Shown: positions 4,400 through 13,312 of the stretch, one piece after another
Layout of the letters: each line of letters starts with the position of its first letter
How positions within the stretch are numbered: position 1 is the stretch's first letter
Source of the DNA: Desulfobacteraceae bacterium
Lineage (GTDB): Bacteria > Desulfobacterota > Desulfobacteria > Desulfobacterales > Desulfobacteraceae
DNA length: 16,024 nt
Assembly: GCA_024225895.1 (NCBI GenBank)
Contig: JAAEMC010001016.1
Location: 1-16,024, forward strand
Direction: 5' to 3'
The notes under the pieces: model-generated
What the model saw: only the letters and a program-made list of their open reading frames with translations
What the model was told of the DNA's origin: nothing
The model's database searches: none
Made by a program: the position numbers and the translations under genes

Positions 4400-4416
4400 G
4401 CATATTAAATAATTCA

Positions 4417-4498
4417 TATAGGGGCGGACCTGTGTGTCCGCCCTTTTCAGAGTCTGTACTATTGTTGAGACGGGCAGACACACAGGTCTGCCCCTACA
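4417..4498 (+). repeat. Inverted pair of REP-like palindromes (BIME-like element)
   Basis: Two 27-nt units face each other: 4417-4443 and, inverted, 4472-4498, agreeing at 24 of 27 positions after reverse-complementing. Each forms its own 8-bp hairpin: GGGCGGAC/GTCCGCCC in the left unit and GGGCAGAC/GTCTGCCC in the right. The two differences inside the stem are a compensatory G-C to A-T pair change. The units can also pair with each other across a 28-nt spacer. The left hairpin is followed by TTTT, so it may end transcription after the symporter, whose stop is at 4397-4399. REP elements are usually mobilised by RAYT (TnpA-REP) transposases encoded elsewhere; none is in this window. Confidence 0.85.
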
Positions 4499-4513
4499 TT
4501 TTTCGGGAATATC

Positions 4514-5107: not shown

Positions 5108-5136
5108 TTGACACAAAGAGACTTTCCGTCTATTTT
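5108..5136 (+). promoter_or_regulatory. Predicted sigma-70 promoter of the cobalamin operon
   Basis: A perfect TTGACA (-35, 5108-5113) is followed after 17 nt by TATTTT (5131-5136), a four-of-six match to the -10 box. Transcription would start around 5142-5144, exactly at the 5' edge of the riboswitch aptamer, which supports the call. Confidence 0.7.
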
Positions 5137-5140
5137 GTTC

Positions 5141-5310
5141 CGATGTACCAGGTGCTGCATCGCAGATAATAGGGAATCCTGTTAAAATCAGGAACGGACC
5201 CGCCGCTGTAGCCGGGGATGAACGCCACAATCGCCACTGTTGAGTTCCTAAATGAAAATGGGAAGGTGTGGTCAGTAAACAGATCCGGAAGTCAGAAAAC
5301 CTGCCTGGGC
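5141..5310 (+). promoter_or_regulatory. Cobalamin (adenosylcobalamin-type) riboswitch aptamer
   Basis: Conserved cobalamin-riboswitch segments occur in the right order. There is GGTGC near 5151, AATAGGGAATCCTGTTAAAA around 5168-5187, then the hallmark CCGCCGCTGTAGCCGGGGA near 5200-5218. GCCACTG follows near 5233 with GGGAAGGTG after it, and last comes CCGGAAGTCAGAAAACCTG ending at 5303. CCAGG (5148-5152) can pair with CCTGG (5304-5308) to close the P1 stem. An intrinsic terminator lies ~65 nt downstream, so binding of cobalamin most likely stops transcription of the uptake and synthesis genes. Any open frame across this stretch is spurious. Confidence 0.93.
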
Positions 5311-5374
5311 ATAGTATTGATTGTATTGCTCGCGAGGATTTGGGCTGATCAGCATAATGAGGAAAAATACGGTT

Positions 5375-5464: not shown

Positions 5465-5677
5465 ATGGCAAGAACAAAAAAGAGACAAGAAGTGGCAATA
5501 ATCCATCCTATGTTTCACATGAAACATGACCATTGGGTAGGGTTTGTTCGCATAGGGGCAGACATCTTTTCCAATCACATTAAGGATGCTGGCAAAGCTT
5601 CAGGCATACGTACCAAAAAGTTTGACATTAACGCCATAGGATTTGGCACGGGTCTGAAAGGCATGGCACAAGTTTGA
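5465..5677 (+). CDS. Small protein of unknown function with a His/Met-rich stretch, first gene of the cobalamin operon
   Basis: The 70-residue product starts at ATG 5465 behind AAGGAG (5448-5453, 11-nt spacing) and ends in a TGA that overlaps the permease TTG start, so it is probably translated and coupled. I do not recognise the family. Visible features are a basic N-terminus (ARTKKRQE), then HPMFHMKHDHW at residues 14-24 with four His (14, 18, 21, 23) and two Met, then a soluble-looking remainder with another basic patch (RTKK) and a Gly-rich end. There is no signal peptide and no membrane segment. As the first gene after a cobalamin riboswitch, a metal (cobalt) binding or delivery role is tempting. 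However, the MFHMKH part is encoded by the parS-like palindrome at 5511-5526, so the His/Met pattern may be a by-product of a DNA site. It could also be a remnant of a larger gene. Confidence 0.6.
   Translation: MARTKKRQEVAIIHPMFHMKHDHWVGFVRIGADIFSNHIKDAGKASGIRTKKFDINAIGFGTGLKGMAQV
5511..5526 (+). promoter_or_regulatory. parS-like ParB-binding site, copy 1
   Basis: TGTTTCACATGAAACA differs from the widespread chromosomal parS consensus TGTTTCACGTGAAACA only at the ninth base. It lies inside the small leader gene, starting at the second base of a Met codon and covering residues 16-21. An identical 16-mer lies at 10865-10880. Function as a ParB site is inferred from sequence only. Confidence 0.6.
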
Positions 5678-6717
5678 GTTTACCGGTTGCCATAGACAAA
5701 AGGAGGACGGGATATCTGGTGGTCTTGTTCTCCTTTTTCCTGACAGGGATGATCCTTCTATCTCTTTCCTTGGGATATATAAAAATTCCTGTTGCGGATA
5801 TTGTAAAAATTCTCTTTGCAAAAGCCTTTGGCAGACTTGATATATTACAGAGCACCAGCGAAACCTTTACTGCTGTCATCTTTGAAGTACGCCTTCCAAG
5901 GATTCTTACCTGCACCGTTGTTGGTGCCGCCCTGGCCGTTTCAGGCACATTGTTCCAGGGGATTTTACTCAATCCTTTAGCAGACCCTTACACGCTTGGC
6001 GTTTCTGCCGGGGCAGCCTTTGGTGCAAGTATTGCAATTTTATTAAATTTAGGGGCAGCCTTTGTTTCCATTCCGCTCTTTGCTTTTGCAGGAGCGTGTA
6101 CCACACTGTTTTTTGTCATTTTTCTTTCCTATTCCTCCAAGAACGCATTTTCAGGTCTATCATCCAACAACTTAATTTTGTCCGGCATTATTGTTGCCGC
6201 TATTTTATCAGCCGGGATCAGTTTCTTAAAATTCGTTGCCAATGAACAGGTCTCTGTTATCATTTTCTGGCTCATGGGAAGTTTTGCATCCAAAACATGG
6301 GCAAATTTTTCTCTGGTCTTATGCTTTTTGGTGGTTGGATACTTCATCAGTCTCTTTTATGCCAGAGATCTGAATCTAATCTGCCTGGGCGACCGCTCTG
6401 CCGCAAGCCTTGGCGTTGATCTTAAAAAAACAACATTGATTCTCCTTGTAACAGGCTCCATGCTTGCTGCCATTTGCGTGTCTGTTTCCGGAATTATCGG
6501 TTTTATCGGACTTCTTGTTCCGCATATGATTCGGTTTGTAACTGGCCCCGACCACCGCAGGCTTATCCCGGTGGCCTTGCTGGCCGGTGGCATCTTATTA
6601 TTGCTTGCTGATACCGTCACCCGGGCAGTACTTCCCCATGAAATCCCCATCGGTGTTCTGACCGCCTTGATTGGCGGCCCTGTCTTTTGTTGGATTTTTA
6701 AAAAGAGCCGAATGTAA
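5674..6717 (+). CDS. btuC: FecCD/BtuC-family ABC transporter permease
   Basis: This 347-residue integral membrane protein of the BtuC/FecCD family forms the channel of an importer for vitamin B12, other corrinoids or metal chelates. Family hallmarks are RLPRIL (73-78), NPLADPYTLGVSAGAAFGA (100-118), the ATPase-coupling region LGDRSAASLGVDL (238-250) and GFIGLLVPHMIR (276-287). About ten membrane helices are predicted, and the length is normal for the family. The chosen TTG start overlaps the previous stop (TTGA) and gives a short basic N-terminus before helix 1. An alternative GTG at 5719 has AGGAGG at 5701-5706 but leaves less N-terminus. The gene is followed 11 nt later by its ATPase. Control by the cobalamin riboswitch points to corrinoid uptake, though cobalt- or iron-chelate transport by this family cannot be excluded. 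Confidence 0.88.
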   Translation: MSLPVAIDKRRTGYLVVLFSFFLTGMILLSLSLGYIKIPVADIVKILFAKAFGRLDILQSTSETFTAVIFEVRLPRILTCTVVGAALAVSGTLFQGILLNPLADPYTLGVSAGAAFGASIAILLNLGAAFVSIPLFAFAGACTTLFFVIFLSYSSKNAFSGLSSNNLILSGIIVAAILSAGISFLKFVANEQVSVIIFWLMGSFASKTWANFSLVLCFLVVGYFISLFYARDLNLICLGDRSAASLGVDLKKTTLILLVTGSMLAAICVSVSGIIGFIGLLVPHMIRFVTGPDHRRLIPVALLAGGILLLLADTVTRAVLPHEIPIGVLTALIGGPVFCWIFKKSRM

Positions 6718-6728
6718 ATGGAGGAGCA

Positions 6729-7505
6729 ATGAAAATTTCAATCAACAATCTTTCTTTCTCCTATGATGCAGATTCCATTCTTCGGCAATTAAATTGTTCT
6801 TTTGAATCTGGAAATTTTTATGCCATCCTGGGCCCCAACGGTTCAGGGAAAACAACATTGCTGGACCTCATTGCCGGCTTTCTTAAGCCATGCCAGGGAG
6901 ATATCTTTTTCGACAAGCAAAAAATAGACTTACTGACAAAAAAGCAAACAGCAAAAAAGATTGGCCTGGTTTCTCAAAACTATTATATAAACTTTCCCTT
7001 TACGGTCCAGGAAGTTGTGATGATGGGGCGTCATCCTCATATACCGAGATTCTCACACCCGTCTGCCGACGACATAAACTTAAGCGAGAGTGTCATGGAG
7101 AAAACCGGCATTCTTCATCTGGCCCACCGAAGAGTGACTGAGTTGTCTGGTGGTGAAAAGCAGCGTTGTATTTTTGCCAGGGCATTGTGCCAGGACACCC
7201 CGGTGCTTTTGCTTGATGAGGCCTTCTCAAATATGGATATCAGTCATACCTTGCAGATGCTTAGGCTGGTGAGACAAAAAGTAATTGAAAAAAATCTTCT
7301 GGTGCTCTCTGTTTTTCACGATCTGAACCTGGCTTCAGCCTGGTGTGATGCACTGGTTTTTTTAAAAAAAGGACAGATTAAAGCTTTCGGGAAGACCAGT
7401 GAGGTCATGACAGATACAAATATTAAAACGGTTTTTGCTGTTGAGGCAAAAGTGGAATTTAATGAGCATGTACAAGCAAAACAGGCATATTTTAATGTTT
7501 CCTAA
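6729..7505 (+). CDS. btuD: ABC transporter ATP-binding protein, BtuD/FecE type
   Basis: The 258-residue cytoplasmic ATPase drives the permease encoded just upstream. It has a complete set of motifs: Walker A GPNGSGKT (35-42), Q-loop Gln83, signature LSGGEKQ (139-145), Walker B PVLLLDE (158-164) ending in the catalytic Glu, and H-loop His197 in VFHDLN. A very strong ribosome-binding site, GGAGGAG at 6720-6726, precedes ATG 6729. The gene lies 11 nt after the permease stop, and its end overlaps the start of the binding-protein gene. Organisation and riboswitch control indicate a BtuCDF-like corrinoid importer; the ATPase sequence itself does not reveal the substrate. Confidence 0.92.
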   Translation: MKISINNLSFSYDADSILRQLNCSFESGNFYAILGPNGSGKTTLLDLIAGFLKPCQGDIFFDKQKIDLLTKKQTAKKIGLVSQNYYINFPFTVQEVVMMGRHPHIPRFSHPSADDINLSESVMEKTGILHLAHRRVTELSGGEKQRCIFARALCQDTPVLLLDEAFSNMDISHTLQMLRLVRQKVIEKNLLVLSVFHDLNLASAWCDALVFLKKGQIKAFGKTSEVMTDTNIKTVFAVEAKVEFNEHVQAKQAYFNVS

Positions 7506-8448
7506 CTATTTACAGAAGGCATCCCTTAAAAAACTTTTGACTGCATTTGTCTTTTGTTTTGTTTTTTTATGGGGGACAGGGCCTTGTCTGGGCGCCAGGA
7601 TTCAAGACAAAAAGAGCCGGATCATCGATTTTGAAAAACCGTTTTCAAGGATTATTTCCCTATATGGAGCCCATACTGAAAACCTGTTCCATATGGAGCT
7701 TGACCAGGAAATCATCGGTGTAAGTGTAAATGATGCCTTCCCTGAAAAAGCCAATACCAAAGAACGCTTTTCTTACCATGATGACGCAGAAAAATTTTTA
7801 GGAAAAAAGCCTGACCTGGTATTAATCAGACCCATGATAGACAACGGGTATCCCAAATTCATAAACAGTCTTGAAAAATTCGGCATAACAGTGGTCTCCC
7901 TTCAACCGTCAAATATTCAAGAGATGTATGAATACTGGAAAAATTTAGGCCTGTTAACAGGGAAAACCAAGGCCGCAAATGAAATGATTGCCTCTTTTAA
8001 AGATAGTATTAAAGAAATTAGAGCATTGACAGCTCCCATCCAACCCAAGAAACAGGTTTATTTTCAAGCGATCCACAAACGGATGAAGACATTTACGCCG
8101 ACATCCATGCCCATTTTTGCCCTTGAGACTGCCGGGGGGATCAATATTGCTTCCGATGCCAAAGCATCCAGGAATACCAATATCGCTATTTACGGAAAAG
8201 AACAGATTCTTGCCAAGGCAAACCAGATAGATGTATTTCTTGCACAAAAAGGAGTAATGAATGCTGTCCATCTCGGCCAGATAAAAATGGAACCAGGTTT
8301 TAAAATAATAAAAGCAGTTAAGAACAACCAGGTATATTTAATAGATGAAAACATAGTATCCCGGCCTGTGCCCAGGCTTCTACAGGGAGTTCTACAGATC
8401 GGGAAACTGCTTTATCCTGATGTGTTCAATCAATTGGTAATAAACTAA
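7495..8448 (+). CDS. btuF: Periplasmic substrate-binding protein of the BtuCDF/FecBCD importer
   Basis: With the ATG at 7495 the product has 317 residues. It starts with a classic export signal: a basic n-region (LQKASLKK), a hydrophobic core (TAFVFCFVFLWG) and a plausible cleavage after CLGA. There is no proper lipobox, so a soluble periplasmic protein is more likely than a lipoprotein. The mature part begins SRIIDFEKPFSRIISLYG and continues as expected for helical-backbone (cluster III) binding proteins, with KPDLVLIRP near the middle of the first lobe and VYLID near the end. In-frame ATGs at 7462 and 7468 would extend the n-region; 7495 is preferred on the signal-peptide shape and the 11-nt overlap with the ATPase, though its ribosome-binding site is weak. 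The likely ligand is a corrinoid, judging by the riboswitch and neighbours. Confidence 0.85.
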   Translation: MFPNYLQKASLKKLLTAFVFCFVFLWGTGPCLGARIQDKKSRIIDFEKPFSRIISLYGAHTENLFHMELDQEIIGVSVNDAFPEKANTKERFSYHDDAEKFLGKKPDLVLIRPMIDNGYPKFINSLEKFGITVVSLQPSNIQEMYEYWKNLGLLTGKTKAANEMIASFKDSIKEIRALTAPIQPKKQVYFQAIHKRMKTFTPTSMPIFALETAGGINIASDAKASRNTNIAIYGKEQILAKANQIDVFLAQKGVMNAVHLGQIKMEPGFKIIKAVKNNQVYLIDENIVSRPVPRLLQGVLQIGKLLYPDVFNQLVIN

Positions 8449-8458
8449 AGGATATGTA

Positions 8459-9163
8459 ATGGACAGAAAAGGTAAATTATACGGAGTCGGCGTGGGACCG
8501 GGGGACCCCGAACTTATCACTGTAAAAGCAGTTCGGGTAATCAAAGCAGCTGATATTATCTTTACGGCTGGTTCTCCTAAAAACAACTACAGCCTTGCGG
8601 TGGAAATTGCCGCCCCTTATATTATGGACAATACAAAAGTAGTGAAACTCGATTTTCCCATGACAAAAGATGAAAAAGCGGTTGAAAAGGCCTGGCTTTA
8701 TAACGCCGGTGAAATCGCCAAGGTTTTAAAACAGGGAAAAACTGCTGTTTTCTTAACCCTTGGTGATCCCACAACTTATTCTACTTTTGGTTATGTTTTA
8801 AAAAAGATGAAATGCATCATGCCCGAGGCAGATATTGAAACAGTTCCGGGAATAACATCCTTTCATGCTGCAGCAGCCCGGCTGAACAGAATTCTTGTGG
8901 AAGCAGAAGAATCTTTATTGATAACCTCCGGTGCCTTTGGCGGAAATCAATTACGCAATATTAATCATGTTGAAAATGTGGCCATTGTCAAAGCCTACAA
9001 AAATATTAAAGACATTAATACTGTATTAAAAGAAACCGGTTTTGATAAGCGGGCCGTTGCAGTATCCAAATGCGGCAGGAAAAATGAAGAAATCATGGAG
9101 GATCTGGATGCCCTGGAAACCAGAGCCCCTGACTATTGGACACTGATACTTGCCGGAAAATGA
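8459..9163 (+). CDS. cbiL: Cobalt-precorrin-2 (cobalt-factor II) C20-methyltransferase CbiL
   Basis: This 234-residue SAM-dependent uroporphyrin-III/corrin methyltransferase adds the C20 methyl group, the first dedicated ring methylation after cobalt insertion. The family motifs are the N-terminal GVGPGDPELIT (11-21), the second glycine-rich segment LTLGDPTTYST (99-109), which is typical of the CbiL/CobI branch, and VPGITSFHAAAA (129-140). Length fits the family. ATG 8459 has AAAGGA at 8447-8452, overlapping the upstream stop. Its TGA (9161-9163) overlaps the next ATG as ATGA, implying translational coupling. The surrounding CbiG and CbiET place it in the anaerobic, early-cobalt pathway, so the substrate is expected to be the cobalt-bound form. 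Confidence 0.94.
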   Translation: MDRKGKLYGVGVGPGDPELITVKAVRVIKAADIIFTAGSPKNNYSLAVEIAAPYIMDNTKVVKLDFPMTKDEKAVEKAWLYNAGEIAKVLKQGKTAVFLTLGDPTTYSTFGYVLKKMKCIMPEADIETVPGITSFHAAAARLNRILVEAEESLLITSGAFGGNQLRNINHVENVAIVKAYKNIKDINTVLKETGFDKRAVAVSKCGRKNEEIMEDLDALETRAPDYWTLILAGK

Positions 9164-10224
9164 AAAGCCAGGGAATTCCATATAAAAAATTAGCTGTCTC
9201 TGTTATCGGGACACTTATTTTGTTCATTGCTGCTGTTGCATTCCTGGACACCATTACCTTTTTTGAAGGGATAAAAAAACTTGGCTGGCCACTGCTGCGT
9301 CTGTCTTTTTTCATCCTCATGGGTTTGACCGCTGGACAGGCTATAGAAACTTTAGGGTGGACACGGCAAGTGGCAGTGCTGGCACGTCCTTTATTTCGTT
9401 TTTCCAACCTGGGCCACCGATGCAGTGCATCCTTTACCACTGCGTTTCTTTCAGGAGCAGCAGCAAATGCCATGCTTTTTGATTTTTATAAGGAAGATAA
9501 AATAAACAAACTCCAACTTTTTTTAACCAATTATATTAACCAGTTTCCGATGTTTTTTTTACATCTTCCTACAACGATATTCATCGTACTGCCGCTTACC
9601 GGATATGCAGGGGTGCTCTATTTTAGTATTACCTTTTTGGCGACACTCTTTAGAACAATCTGTTTTTTGTTTTTTGGATATCTTTATCCTGGGCTTGGTT
9701 CTGCCGCTAAAAATAATAATATTGAAATGGACTCAAACACGGCTGACCGCAAGGAGAGCCCAGGTTTAGGACAGCTTTTTAAGACCATTAAATCGAAACT
9801 ACCCGGTCGAATTACCCGTATCATGGTCTGGGTATTACCCATTTATACCTTTGTTTTTATTCTAAACACCCATGGTTTTTTTGAATATCTAAATAGATCC
9901 ATGGCACAGTATTTAGCCTTGGAGATATTGCCTGTAGAATCTTTAGGCATAGTAATTTTATCATTTGCAGCAGAATTTACTTCCGGTTTTGCAGCGGCAG
10001 GGGCTTTGATGGATGCTGGTGTTTTAAACGTCAAGCAGACGGTTATTGCACTTTTACTGGGCAACATTCTGGCATTTCCCATTCGGGCTCTGCGACATCA
10101 ATTACCCAGATACATGGGAATTTTTTCTCCCAAAATGGGATTGCAGCTGCTATTATCCGGACAGTTCTTTAGGATAACAAGTCTTGTTTTTGTTGGTTTA
10201 ATTTACTATTTGGTGACGCCATGA
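9160..10224 (+). CDS. Nucleoside-recognition (Gate) domain-type membrane protein in the cobalamin operon
   Basis: The 354-residue inner-membrane protein has about eight to nine hydrophobic segments in two halves separated by a hydrophilic, charged loop at about residues 180-210. Each half carries a Gate/nucleoside-recognition-like segment: SFTTAFLSGAAANAMLFDF in the first, and AAEFTSGFAAAGALMDAGVL in the second. Homologous folds occur in SpmA/SpmB, FeoB and nucleoside transporters. ATG 9160 overlaps the cbiL stop (ATGA); the open frame extends upstream to a TTG at 9136, but that would overlap cbiL by 28 nt without a ribosome-binding site. The 3' end overlaps cbiET (ATGA). Sandwiched with overlaps on both sides among corrin-ring genes, it is presumably needed for cobalamin synthesis or uptake. 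Transport of cobalt, a corrinoid or a nucleobase precursor are possibilities, none shown by the sequence. Confidence 0.8.
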   Translation: MKSQGIPYKKLAVSVIGTLILFIAAVAFLDTITFFEGIKKLGWPLLRLSFFILMGLTAGQAIETLGWTRQVAVLARPLFRFSNLGHRCSASFTTAFLSGAAANAMLFDFYKEDKINKLQLFLTNYINQFPMFFLHLPTTIFIVLPLTGYAGVLYFSITFLATLFRTICFLFFGYLYPGLGSAAKNNNIEMDSNTADRKESPGLGQLFKTIKSKLPGRITRIMVWVLPIYTFVFILNTHGFFEYLNRSMAQYLALEILPVESLGIVILSFAAEFTSGFAAAGALMDAGVLNVKQTVIALLLGNILAFPIRALRHQLPRYMGIFSPKMGLQLLLSGQFFRITSLVFVGLIYYLVTP

Positions 10225-11450
10225 CTATCCCTGTACATATTATCGGTTTAGGATTAAGCAATAAAGATCTGACCCGGCAGCAAAAAAAAATAATTGAGGC
10301 TTGTGATCTGCTTGTAGGAGGGAAAAGGCTTCTCTCATTTTTTGAGTATCTTTCATGTGAAAAAATATCCATTACTTCGCCAATATCTAAAGTAATAACA
10401 AAAATTAAGTCTTCCATGGACACAAAACAAGTTGTGGTTTTAGCTTCCGGAGATCCACTTTTCCACGGAATTGGGTCTACTCTTTTGAAACATATGGACA
10501 AGGCGGATCTCGTAATACATCCCAACATATCTTCAGTGGCTGCAGCATTTGCAAAAATAAAGGAGCCCTGGCATGATGCCTGTCTGATCAGCCTTCATGG
10601 TAAATCAAAAAAAGATTTTAACCCCAGCGAGATTGCAAAAGAAAACAGGGTTGCCATATTAACTGACCCTAATTTCAGCCCTGCAGCAATTGCATCAAAA
10701 TTTATAGAAGCAAATATTGCAAACTTCACATTCTGGGTTCTTGAAAATATAGGCAGTGAAAAAGAAAAGATATCTTGTTTTGATGATACCGCTGAATTAA
10801 AAAATAATACATATTCCCACCCCAACCTTGTGCTCCTTATCAAAAAAGAAGGACTGCCATTGAATGTTTCACATGAAACACACATAGGGATGCCGGATGA
10901 GGCCTTTGCCCATGAAAAGGGGTTGATTACAAAATCAGAAATCCGAAGCATTACTTTATCCAAACTAAAACTTTCGAAAAACAATCATTTGCTTTGGGAT
11001 ATCGGTGCTGGATCAGGATCCGTTTCCATTGAAGCCAGTTTTATGATGACCCATGGAAAAATTATTACCATTGAAAAAAACCCTGAACGAATAAAAAACA
11101 TACAGGCAAACATTCTCAAGTTTGGATGTCATAATTTAACAGTGTTGAACACAAACTTCCCCAATGGGATTAAAACCCTTGACACCCCGGATCGTATATT
11201 CATAGGCGGTGGCGGGGAAAATCTTGAATTGATAATTTCAAAAGCAATAGATTGTTTGGCGCCAGGTGGTATTATCGTAATTAACACTGTGTTGCTGGAG
11301 AATTTGGATGCCGCCTGCAGGATTCTTGAAAAAAAGGGCTTATGCCCGCAGGTCACCCAGATCCAAATATCCAGGTCCAAACCCATGCCCTTTGGGAAAC
11401 GCATGGCAGCATTGAACCCGGTATGGATAATATCCGGGGAACAACCTTAA
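10221..11450 (+). CDS. cbiET: CbiE-CbiT fusion: C5/C15 methyltransferase and C12 decarboxylase (CobL-like)
   Basis: This 409-residue two-domain enzyme methylates the corrin ring at C5 and C15 and removes the C12 acetate carboxylate. Residues 1 to about 208 form the CbiE tetrapyrrole methylase domain, with VHIIGLGLSNKDLT (5-18) in place of the usual GxGPG loop, VLASGDPLFHGIG (73-85) and HPNISSVAAAFA (100-111). Residues from about 221 form the CbiT Rossmann-fold domain, beginning at THIGMPDEAF and containing the SAM motif DIGAGSGSVSIEA (260-272). GGGGENL (329-335) and the C-terminal SKPMPFGKRMAALNPVWII are typical. The start overlaps the previous stop (ATGA). A parS-like palindrome falls in the interdomain linker at residues 215-220. 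Separate cbiE and cbiT genes are common in other anaerobes; the fusion is known in CobL. Confidence 0.94.
   Translation: MTIPVHIIGLGLSNKDLTRQQKKIIEACDLLVGGKRLLSFFEYLSCEKISITSPISKVITKIKSSMDTKQVVVLASGDPLFHGIGSTLLKHMDKADLVIHPNISSVAAAFAKIKEPWHDACLISLHGKSKKDFNPSEIAKENRVAILTDPNFSPAAIASKFIEANIANFTFWVLENIGSEKEKISCFDDTAELKNNTYSHPNLVLLIKKEGLPLNVSHETHIGMPDEAFAHEKGLITKSEIRSITLSKLKLSKNNHLLWDIGAGSGSVSIEASFMMTHGKIITIEKNPERIKNIQANILKFGCHNLTVLNTNFPNGIKTLDTPDRIFIGGGGENLELIISKAIDCLAPGGIIVINTVLLENLDAACRILEKKGLCPQVTQIQISRSKPMPFGKRMAALNPVWIISGEQP
10865..10880 (+). promoter_or_regulatory. parS-like ParB-binding site, copy 2
   Basis: TGTTTCACATGAAACA is identical to the site at 5511-5526, 5,354 bp away, and one base from the parS consensus. 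It begins at the third base of an Asn codon, a different codon phase from copy 1, and encodes parts of residues 215-220 in the linker between the CbiE and CbiT domains. ParB binding is inferred, not shown. Confidence 0.6.
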
Positions 11451-11463
11451 ACAAGGCAATCAA

Positions 11464-12249
11464 ATGAACATAAAAGAAAATAAAGTGATCTTTGCAGGAG
11501 CGGGACCGGGAGATCCGGAACTGGTAACCGTAAAAACCATGAATGCACTTAAAAATGCCGATCTTATCATTTATGCAGGATCCCTGGTTCCTGAAGCGGT
11601 ATTGTGCTGGAAAGGTGAACAGACACGAACTGTATCCAGTGCCGGCATGAGCCTGGACCAGATCTTGGATGAAATCATAAAGTACATTGAAAAAGGGAAA
11701 AAAGTGGTGCGGCTGCATACAGGAGACCCTTCCTTGTATGGCGCCATTTTTGAACAGATGATGTTGTTGGATGAAAATGGGATCGCCTATGAGGTGATAC
11801 CAGGGGTAACCGCAGCTTTTGCAGCAGCAGCCAGGATGAAAATGGAGTATACACTTCCTGAAACCACACAGACTTTAATTCTGACACGTATTTCAGGCAG
11901 GACGCCTGTGCCGGAGGCTGAAGATCTTTCTCTTTTGGCTGCCCATAAAAGCTCCATGGCAATTTATTTGAGCATGGGCCACGCTCAAAAAGTAGAAAAT
12001 ATTTTAAAAGAACATTATGGCGAGGATGCGGTTTGTGCAATTGCCTATAAGGTCTCCCATCCGGAAGAAAAAATTATCACTACTCGAATAGGGAATCTAA
12101 CTGCAACCTGTCAAAACAATGAAATCACCCGGCATGCATTAATCATAGTGGGGAAAGCGGTGGCCGCAAGCCAGGACAAAAAAGCACTGGTAAAATCAAA
12201 ATTATATGATGCCAAGTTTTCACATGGATACAGACGCGCACAAAAATAA
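11464..12249 (+). CDS. cbiF: Cobalt-precorrin-4 C11-methyltransferase CbiF
   Basis: This 261-residue SAM-dependent enzyme methylates C11 of the contracted ring. It shows the N-terminal GAGPGDPELVT (12-22), RLHTGDPSLYGA (83-94) and VIPGVTAAFAAAA (111-123). The segment LPETTQTLILTRISGRTPVP (131-150) is characteristic of the CbiF/CobM branch and separates it from the other methyltransferases in this operon. The length is normal. The start ATG has AAGG at 11454-11457 and lies 13 nt after cbiET. Its 3' end overlaps cbiG by up to 44 nt. Confidence 0.95.
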   Translation: MNIKENKVIFAGAGPGDPELVTVKTMNALKNADLIIYAGSLVPEAVLCWKGEQTRTVSSAGMSLDQILDEIIKYIEKGKKVVRLHTGDPSLYGAIFEQMMLLDENGIAYEVIPGVTAAFAAAARMKMEYTLPETTQTLILTRISGRTPVPEAEDLSLLAAHKSSMAIYLSMGHAQKVENILKEHYGEDAVCAIAYKVSHPEEKIITTRIGNLTATCQNNEITRHALIIVGKAVAASQDKKALVKSKLYDAKFSHGYRRAQK

Positions 12250-13312
12250 TCCAGATAAAACAGATACGGACCACCGTGCCGCCATATGGGTTATCACACC
12301 TAATGGCCTGCCGGTGGCATCACTCCTTGAGAAAGAGCTAAAAGATGTTCAGTCTTTTGTATCTGAAAAATTGGTTTCAAATGATTCCAGGCCCAAGAAG
12401 GCTGTCCCATTTTCCAGCTTATCCAATGCCCTAAAGACAAATTTTAAAAAATTCAGCAGCCATATTTTTATATTCTCCACTGGAATTGCTGTAAGAATGA
12501 TTGCCCCGTTGCTGGAATCAAAACTAACAGATCCGGCTGTGGTCGTTCTGGATGACAGGGCTATCCATTGTATCAGTCTGGTTTCAGGTCATATCGGCGG
12601 TGCAAATGCTCTGGCAAAAAAAGTGGGAAAGCTGACCGGGGCAAATCCTGTTATCACAACTGCTACGGACACCAACAATCTGCCGGCAATTGACATGCTT
12701 GCCAAAGAAAATAACTGTGTCATTGAAAACCCCAGTGCAATTAAGAAAATAAATATGGCATTTCTCATGGGCAACAAATTGATTCTTGAAGATCCCATGG
12801 GAATCATTGAACAAAAATTATCCCGCAGGTTCTGGAATAAAAAAAAATCAATCCATGCCCCTGATGTCTTCTGTTCCCATATAATAAAGAACATTTCAGA
12901 CAACACCCTTGTGCTGCGGCCAAAAGTTTTAAGCATCGGGATCGGATGCAACCGAAACACCATGGCTTCTGAAATCCAGGATTTTCTTTTTACCACACTC
13001 AAGAAGCAATTGTTAAGCCAGAACGCTATTTTCACTCTTGCCACCATAGATGTGAAAAAAGATGAAAAGGGATTACTGGCGTTATCGGAACAATTGGAAT
13101 TGCCCCTGAAATTTTATGATAAAAATGCCTTGAATTCAGTGAAAAACATAGAAACACCATCGATGATGGCAAAAAAACATTTAGGAGTAAAAAGCGTATG
13201 CGAAGCAGCAGCGATTCTGTCAGCGGACAACGGAACCCTGATTCTACCCAAGCAAAAGCAGGGGAATGTCACACTGGCAGTTGCAATAAAAGATGTAAAC
13301 TCTACGTTGTAG
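12206..13312 (+). CDS. cbiG: Cobalt-precorrin-5A hydrolase CbiG
   Basis: The 368-residue product opens the delta-lactone of cobalt-precorrin-5A, releasing acetaldehyde, a step specific to the anaerobic pathway. The N-terminal and central domain is seen in IFSTGIAVRMIAPLL (89-103), DPAVVVLDDRA (109-119) and SLVSGHIGGANALA (124-137), followed by ITTATDTNNLPAIDMLA (150-166). The C-terminal domain starts at VLSIGIGCNRNT (241-252) and ends with GNVTLAVAIKD. The start is uncertain: ATG 12206 (44-nt overlap with cbiF) and ATG 12224 both lack a clear ribosome-binding site, and the first ~23 residues are a hydrophilic extension. The 3' end overlaps the cbiH frame by 115 nt. The sequence gives no sign of a frame error in the conserved parts. 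Confidence 0.93.
   Translation: MMPSFHMDTDAHKNNPDKTDTDHRAAIWVITPNGLPVASLLEKELKDVQSFVSEKLVSNDSRPKKAVPFSSLSNALKTNFKKFSSHIFIFSTGIAVRMIAPLLESKLTDPAVVVLDDRAIHCISLVSGHIGGANALAKKVGKLTGANPVITTATDTNNLPAIDMLAKENNCVIENPSAIKKINMAFLMGNKLILEDPMGIIEQKLSRRFWNKKKSIHAPDVFCSHIIKNISDNTLVLRPKVLSIGIGCNRNTMASEIQDFLFTTLKKQLLSQNAIFTLATIDVKKDEKGLLALSEQLELPLKFYDKNALNSVKNIETPSMMAKKHLGVKSVCEAAAILSADNGTLILPKQKQGNVTLAVAIKDVNSTL

Follow-up and report, generated by a model that had tools for sequence, protein, structure and literature searches.

Chromosomal ParABS systems act on parS, a 16-bp near-palindrome with the consensus TGTTTCACGTGAAACA. According to the portions of a review that concern them, parS sites are found most often near the origin (PMC7333895). 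The Caulobacter sites, as described in the relevant part of PMC5815017, lie inside essential or costly genes and have one conserved half, GTGAAA. A related ParB-family protein, Noc, recognizes a binding site (NBS) that reads TATTTCCC in the account of PMC7383237, where position 2 is A and position 7 is C.

The locus described here contains two identical 16-mers, which on the grounds of sequence comparison are very probably chromosomal parS sites, forming part of a small array that the family keeps over a cobalamin operon and its downstream genes. Like chromosomal parS, the sites are 16-bp near-palindromes that lie several together within about 5–15 kb, partly inside genes, and they are near the sampled skew minimum in three of four relatives. 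They differ from it in the CACATG centre, which is common in the family, in the placement of the array in a cobalamin operon, and in the position of dnaA (in two genomes also of parB) megabases away from the inferred origin. The Caulobacter crescentus cluster resembles them in that it, too, consists of several imperfect sites that share a conserved half and stand close together in essential or costly genes. That cluster is situated about 8 kb from the origin, as described in the same part of PMC5815017, whereas the origin is placed here from coarse skew only. Intragenic parS is already known; the features that seem particular to our case are the operon in which the sites lie, the high frequency of the CACATG centre and the footprint at codon level.

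The window, i.e., the whole stretch of 16,024 nucleotides that was analysed (contig JAAEMC010001016.1 of a Desulfobacteraceae bacterium), carries a cobalamin operon with a riboswitch, a FecCD permease, an ABC ATPase, a binding protein, a tetrapyrrole methylase, a membrane protein and a domain fusion that we take to be CbiET (Table 1). The genes 3' of it are presumably CbiF, CbiG, CbiH, CobA and CbiP. An inverted repeat at 4416–4499, with 34-nt arms that are 85% complementary and 16 nt apart, is situated between the 2765 and 4514 ORFs and appears terminator-like by eye.

Table 1. Coordinates of the sites and genes of the cobalamin operon in the window.
Feature	Position	Strand	Remarks
Cobalamin riboswitch aptamer	5133..5321	+	RF00174, 96.8 bits
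70-aa ORF enclosing site 1	5465..5677	+	AAGGAG before start; stop overlaps TTG start of FecCD
parS-like site 1 (position P1)	5511..5526	+	TGTTTCACATGAAACA, between cobalamin riboswitch and FecCD
FecCD-type transport permease	5674..6717	+	PF01032, 310.9 bits
ABC transporter ATPase	6729..7505	+	Named by eye from sequence
Periplasmic binding protein (BtuF-like)	7435..8448	+	PF01497
Tetrapyrrole methylase	8459..9163	+	PF00590; presumably CbiL-like
TP_methylase + methyltransferase domain fusion, holds site 2	10221..11450	+	Domain search; taken to be CbiET
parS-like site 2 (position P2)	10865..10880	+	Same TGTTTCACATGAAACA, CbiET interdomain linker, residues N-V-S-H-E-T
Gene at P3-bearing position in relatives	12206..13312	+	Presumably CbiG-like; window reads ATT TCA GAC AAC there

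A preliminary description of this DNA had reported identical 16-mers at these two places, one base away from parS. A sequence scan of the window confirmed exact copies of TGTTTCACATGAAACA on the plus strand, spaced by 5.35 kb and each having one mismatch to consensus parS. The differing codon phases were also recovered on both ORFs: site 1 starts at codon position 2 in the 5465 ORF, and site 2 at codon position 3 in CbiET. The left half of the site, TGTTTCAC, is canonical and the sole change sits in the right half, ATGAAACA, the centre being CACATG as compared with CACGTG in the consensus. The 16-mer had been called a palindrome; its two 7-base arms do match, but the central CA does not, so that the palindrome is imperfect. 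On both strands of the window, no 16-mer occurs twice other than TGTTTCACATGAAACA and the overlapping word that starts one base before it and is part of this pair. By recalculation, the chance expectation for the window is 0.00018 16-mers that differ from consensus parS by at most one base under uniform composition and 0.00019 under an order-3 Markov model, close to the initial figure of about 0.0002 in 16 kb. A weaker match at 10349–10364, in the first part of CbiET (two mismatches to the 16-mer, three to the consensus), may be due to chance.

The two copies had further been assigned to two unrelated genes. This is correct for copy 2, which is in CbiET, but doubtful for copy 1, because its ORF is an orphan and the corresponding place in the relatives is the leader between the riboswitch and FecCD. 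A Pfam search with the 70-aa ORF found nothing, nor did a search of the 115 other genomes, and the ORF is possibly not a genuine gene. Across the parS-like site it encodes MFHMKHDH, in its N-terminal part.

Genome-wide counting of the 16-mer and of the consensus, as proposed in the preliminary description, was carried out on the window's own assembly (4,635,801 bases in 1184 contigs, 81% complete). At this completeness, the assembly contained the window's two exact copies of TGTTTCACATGAAACA only, three matches with two mismatches to the 16-mer elsewhere, and no exact consensus parS. The exact sites were then counted in 116 genomes including this one, 70 of them from the window's family and 46 from the order's other families. 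TGTTTCACATGAAACA was present in 24 of the 70 family genomes (own included) and in two of the 46 others, as against one of 70 and 29 of 46, respectively, for the exact consensus. These counts support a lineage-specific parS variant with a CACATG centre, as had been suggested, though the family is not exclusive to CACATG: the centre is frequent in it, and canonical cores with CACGTG stand at the same positions in relatives. The parS-type core GTTYCACRTGRAAC was detected in 77 of 86 family genomes, while the reversed control of the core gave eight matches in seven of the 86. Among family genomes with a completeness of 90% or more and a contamination of 5% or less, the proportion was 40 of 42. The nine of 86 genomes in which the core was not found comprise six below 90% completeness and three at or above it. 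The sites cluster in one region in the relatives as well.

One cobalamin operon carries the sites at constant positions in different genomes, namely after the riboswitch (P1), in the CbiET linker (P2) and in CbiG (P3). At P1, a site with at most three mismatches to the consensus follows the riboswitch in seven of the eight relatives' loci scanned, locus L201 being without one. P1 was seen in a Desulfobacula sp. MAG (L296), and genome G062 carries the exact consensus there. At P3, GTT[T/C]CACGTG[A/G]AAC was found in 25 of the 45 loci with CbiG sequence, representing 19 distinct genomes; many of these 45 loci had been fetched because they bear a site, and several end before P3. The core at P3 in the relatives is GTT[T/C]CACGTG, and the site is absent from the window (Table 1). 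Within one genus, four genomes (G013, G026, G031 and G041) showed a further core site at 86–89 bases from the CbiET match, measured from its 3' end.

Codon-level conservation at P2 was assessed on the 24 best CbiET hits, all from the window's family and including its own, after realignment. The cut at rank 24 was chosen after the hits at ranks 25 and 26 (G004 and G016) had been seen to be without the P2 motif. In these 24 genomes, valine was encoded by GTT (21/21), serine by TCA (20/20), histidine by CAT (17/17), glutamate by GAA (23/23) and threonine mostly by ACA (19/24). The third-position identity over the five codons was 0.896 as compared with a gene mean of 0.433 (sd 0.096; 24 sequences, relatedness uncorrected), and the two best of 380 windows along the gene by this measure both cover the P2 site. 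When third-position identity minus amino-acid identity is used as the sole measure, P2 is only 17th of 380. The CbiET linker is variable in sequence, and the P2 residues vary along the DNA motif: a change of serine to proline retains GTTCCAC, and a change of histidine to arginine in G068 yields the canonical centre CACGTG. Thus, in the comparison of related genomes at synonymous positions that had been proposed at the outset, the bases at P2 were kept where the residues vary. Third codon positions that are 90% identical, while amino-acid identity ranks 84th of 380 windows, indicate that the DNA at P2 is itself under selection, beyond the needs of the protein. No such motif was found at this place in 26 other CbiETs, 10 from the family and 16 from other families.

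A motif that recurs in one operon could also be the operator of a cobalamin-pathway regulator, which we regard as very unlikely. The position of P1 directly 3' of the riboswitch would suit an operator. The distances to CbiET were counted, among the core matches listed, in the 27 family genomes that had both such a listed match and a CbiET hit. At least one core site was within 20 kb of CbiET in 15 of these genomes (38 of those genomes' 43 sites), which also speaks for an operator. Among the same listed matches, however, nine of the 27 genomes had their sites on the contig of CbiET but at a distance of more than 20 kb, and three had them on other contigs. In the other families, an exact 16-mer and CbiET were on different contigs in all 12 genomes with both, these being draft assemblies, and two of the three recurrent positions, P2 and P3, are intragenic. 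The operator was rejected because of the sites more than 20 kb away in nine of the 27 genomes (matches listed) and the 16 CbiETs of other families without the motif.

In G015, G032, G054 and G065, sites occur by three further protein genes away from CbiET, the products of which we take to be DUF342-type, LigT-like and radical-SAM proteins. The DUF342-type and LigT-like genes are found downstream of the operon in G033, G060 and G062 too, and the neighbourhood is therefore partly shared. Outside the shared neighbourhood, TGTTTCACATGAAACG sites were observed twice in G015 (L191 and L192), twice in G032 (L188, 7.5 kb apart) and once in G054; they are perhaps carried by a repeat element.

For the proteins, a strong ParB_N protein was present in all 24 family genomes examined, and a ParA-like ORF adjoins parB in all 12 ParB loci read. 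The ParB helix in these 12 loci is GKNRSTIAN. By an ungapped count from G170 and K171, the family ParB has R173, G201 and R204, lysine being found at neither 179 nor 184, with asparagine at position 172 as compared with S172. R173 and G201 together with the lack of lysine at 179 and 184 is the pattern of a parS-type ParB, as given in the part of PMC7383237 dealing with these residues. Solved ParB chains match the family ParB well. In the window's own assembly, the sole ParB_N match was weak and did not reach the cut-off; the assembly's completeness of 81% may explain the missing strong match. Beside parB, 24 loci spanning about 3.3 kb each contained no parS with two or fewer mismatches to the consensus, but one match with three mismatches (L063) and five with four.

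Several family genomes have extra ParB_N proteins, and four of 24 genomes (G015, G028, G032 and G065) carry sites of mixed type, for instance TGTTTCCCGTGAAACA. Both observations would favour binding of the sites by another ParB-family protein, e.g., a Noc-like one, in place of the chromosomal ParB. We consider such a binder highly improbable, as the residues of the conserved family ParB are of the parS type in the 12 loci read, and the bases at positions 2 and 7 (G and A) fit parS and not the Noc site. The NBS was rejected on these two distinguishing bases, at which the window sites (TGTTTCAC) differ from it. The 16-mer could also have arisen twice by chance or as a side effect of the encoded protein, in favour of which one may cite that the own assembly has only two exact copies, both readable as peptides. 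Such an origin retains a negligible probability in view of the low chance expectation, the recurrence in relatives and the third-position conservation at P2, which led us to reject the coding by-product.

The chromosomal parS reading is based on the sites themselves, their positional and base-level conservation, ParA–ParB in the relatives, and the proximity to the skew minimum in three of four genomes. We infer that these sites are bound by ParB, also in the variant with the CACATG centre, and that the window's own genome is laid out likewise. The chromosome's ParB would nucleate at the TGTTTCACATGAAACA sites, and loaded ParB would slide onto the flanking DNA. At the array, ParB would serve origin segregation and SMC loading.

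The position relative to the origin was estimated from GC skew in four relatives (G060, G057, G033 and G015), using 20 samples of 20 kb per genome and a two-arc fit. By this coarse sampled skew, the inferred origin is 0.21 Mb from the sites in G060, 0.24 Mb in G057 and 0.58 Mb in G033. G015 has a weak skew, and its inferred origin is 1.83 Mb from the site at 143049, which argues against an origin-proximal location. The origin-proximal zone assumed in the preliminary description is thus supported by the sampled skew in G060, G057 and G033 and contradicted in G015, the comparison referring to relatives only. Denser sampling of G033 between 4.40 and 5.16 Mb showed a noisy transition, with sites of at most three mismatches only at the operon. 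Forty coarse stretches of G033 and G015 (800 kb) contained five matches, all with three mismatches.

The distance from the skew minimum to dnaA was 2.35 Mb in G060, 2.57 Mb in G057 and 1.90 Mb in G033, and that to parB was 1.78, 2.54 and 0.30 Mb, respectively. In G015, dnaA is 0.35 Mb from the inferred origin. A megabase distance of dnaA (and of parB in G060 and G057) from the skew minimum is an unusual layout. In G060, G057 and G033, dnaA may be no marker of the origin, and it was dropped as such, since the sampled skew puts it 1.9–2.6 Mb from the minimum.

An effect of ParB on the expression of the B12 genes, such as the silencing or bending suggested in the preliminary description as a layer over riboswitch control, is possible but unsupported. 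In Streptococcus pneumoniae, ParB–parS is said, by the title of a 2015 study by Attaiech on competence, to modulate other functions. By its title, this would be a precedent for the candidate effect on B12 expression considered here. For B. subtilis, the relevant part of the review PMC7333895 states that ParB at its native level does not silence parS-adjacent genes. A further-reaching scenario, which we consider unlikely, is a centromere array recruited into the B12 operon, where ParB at P1, P2 and P3 would tie B12 synthesis to replication and segregation, and parS DNA would have written linker peptides (VSHET, V-S/P-R-E) that would otherwise drift.

With the sites read as chromosomal parS, a partition site would be kept in a metabolic operon across a bacterial family, where it would dictate codons and partly residues of B12 enzymes. 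The sites would point to the origin region in genomes in which dnaA gives no guidance, and the array opens the way to a test of ParB loading against B12 gene expression.
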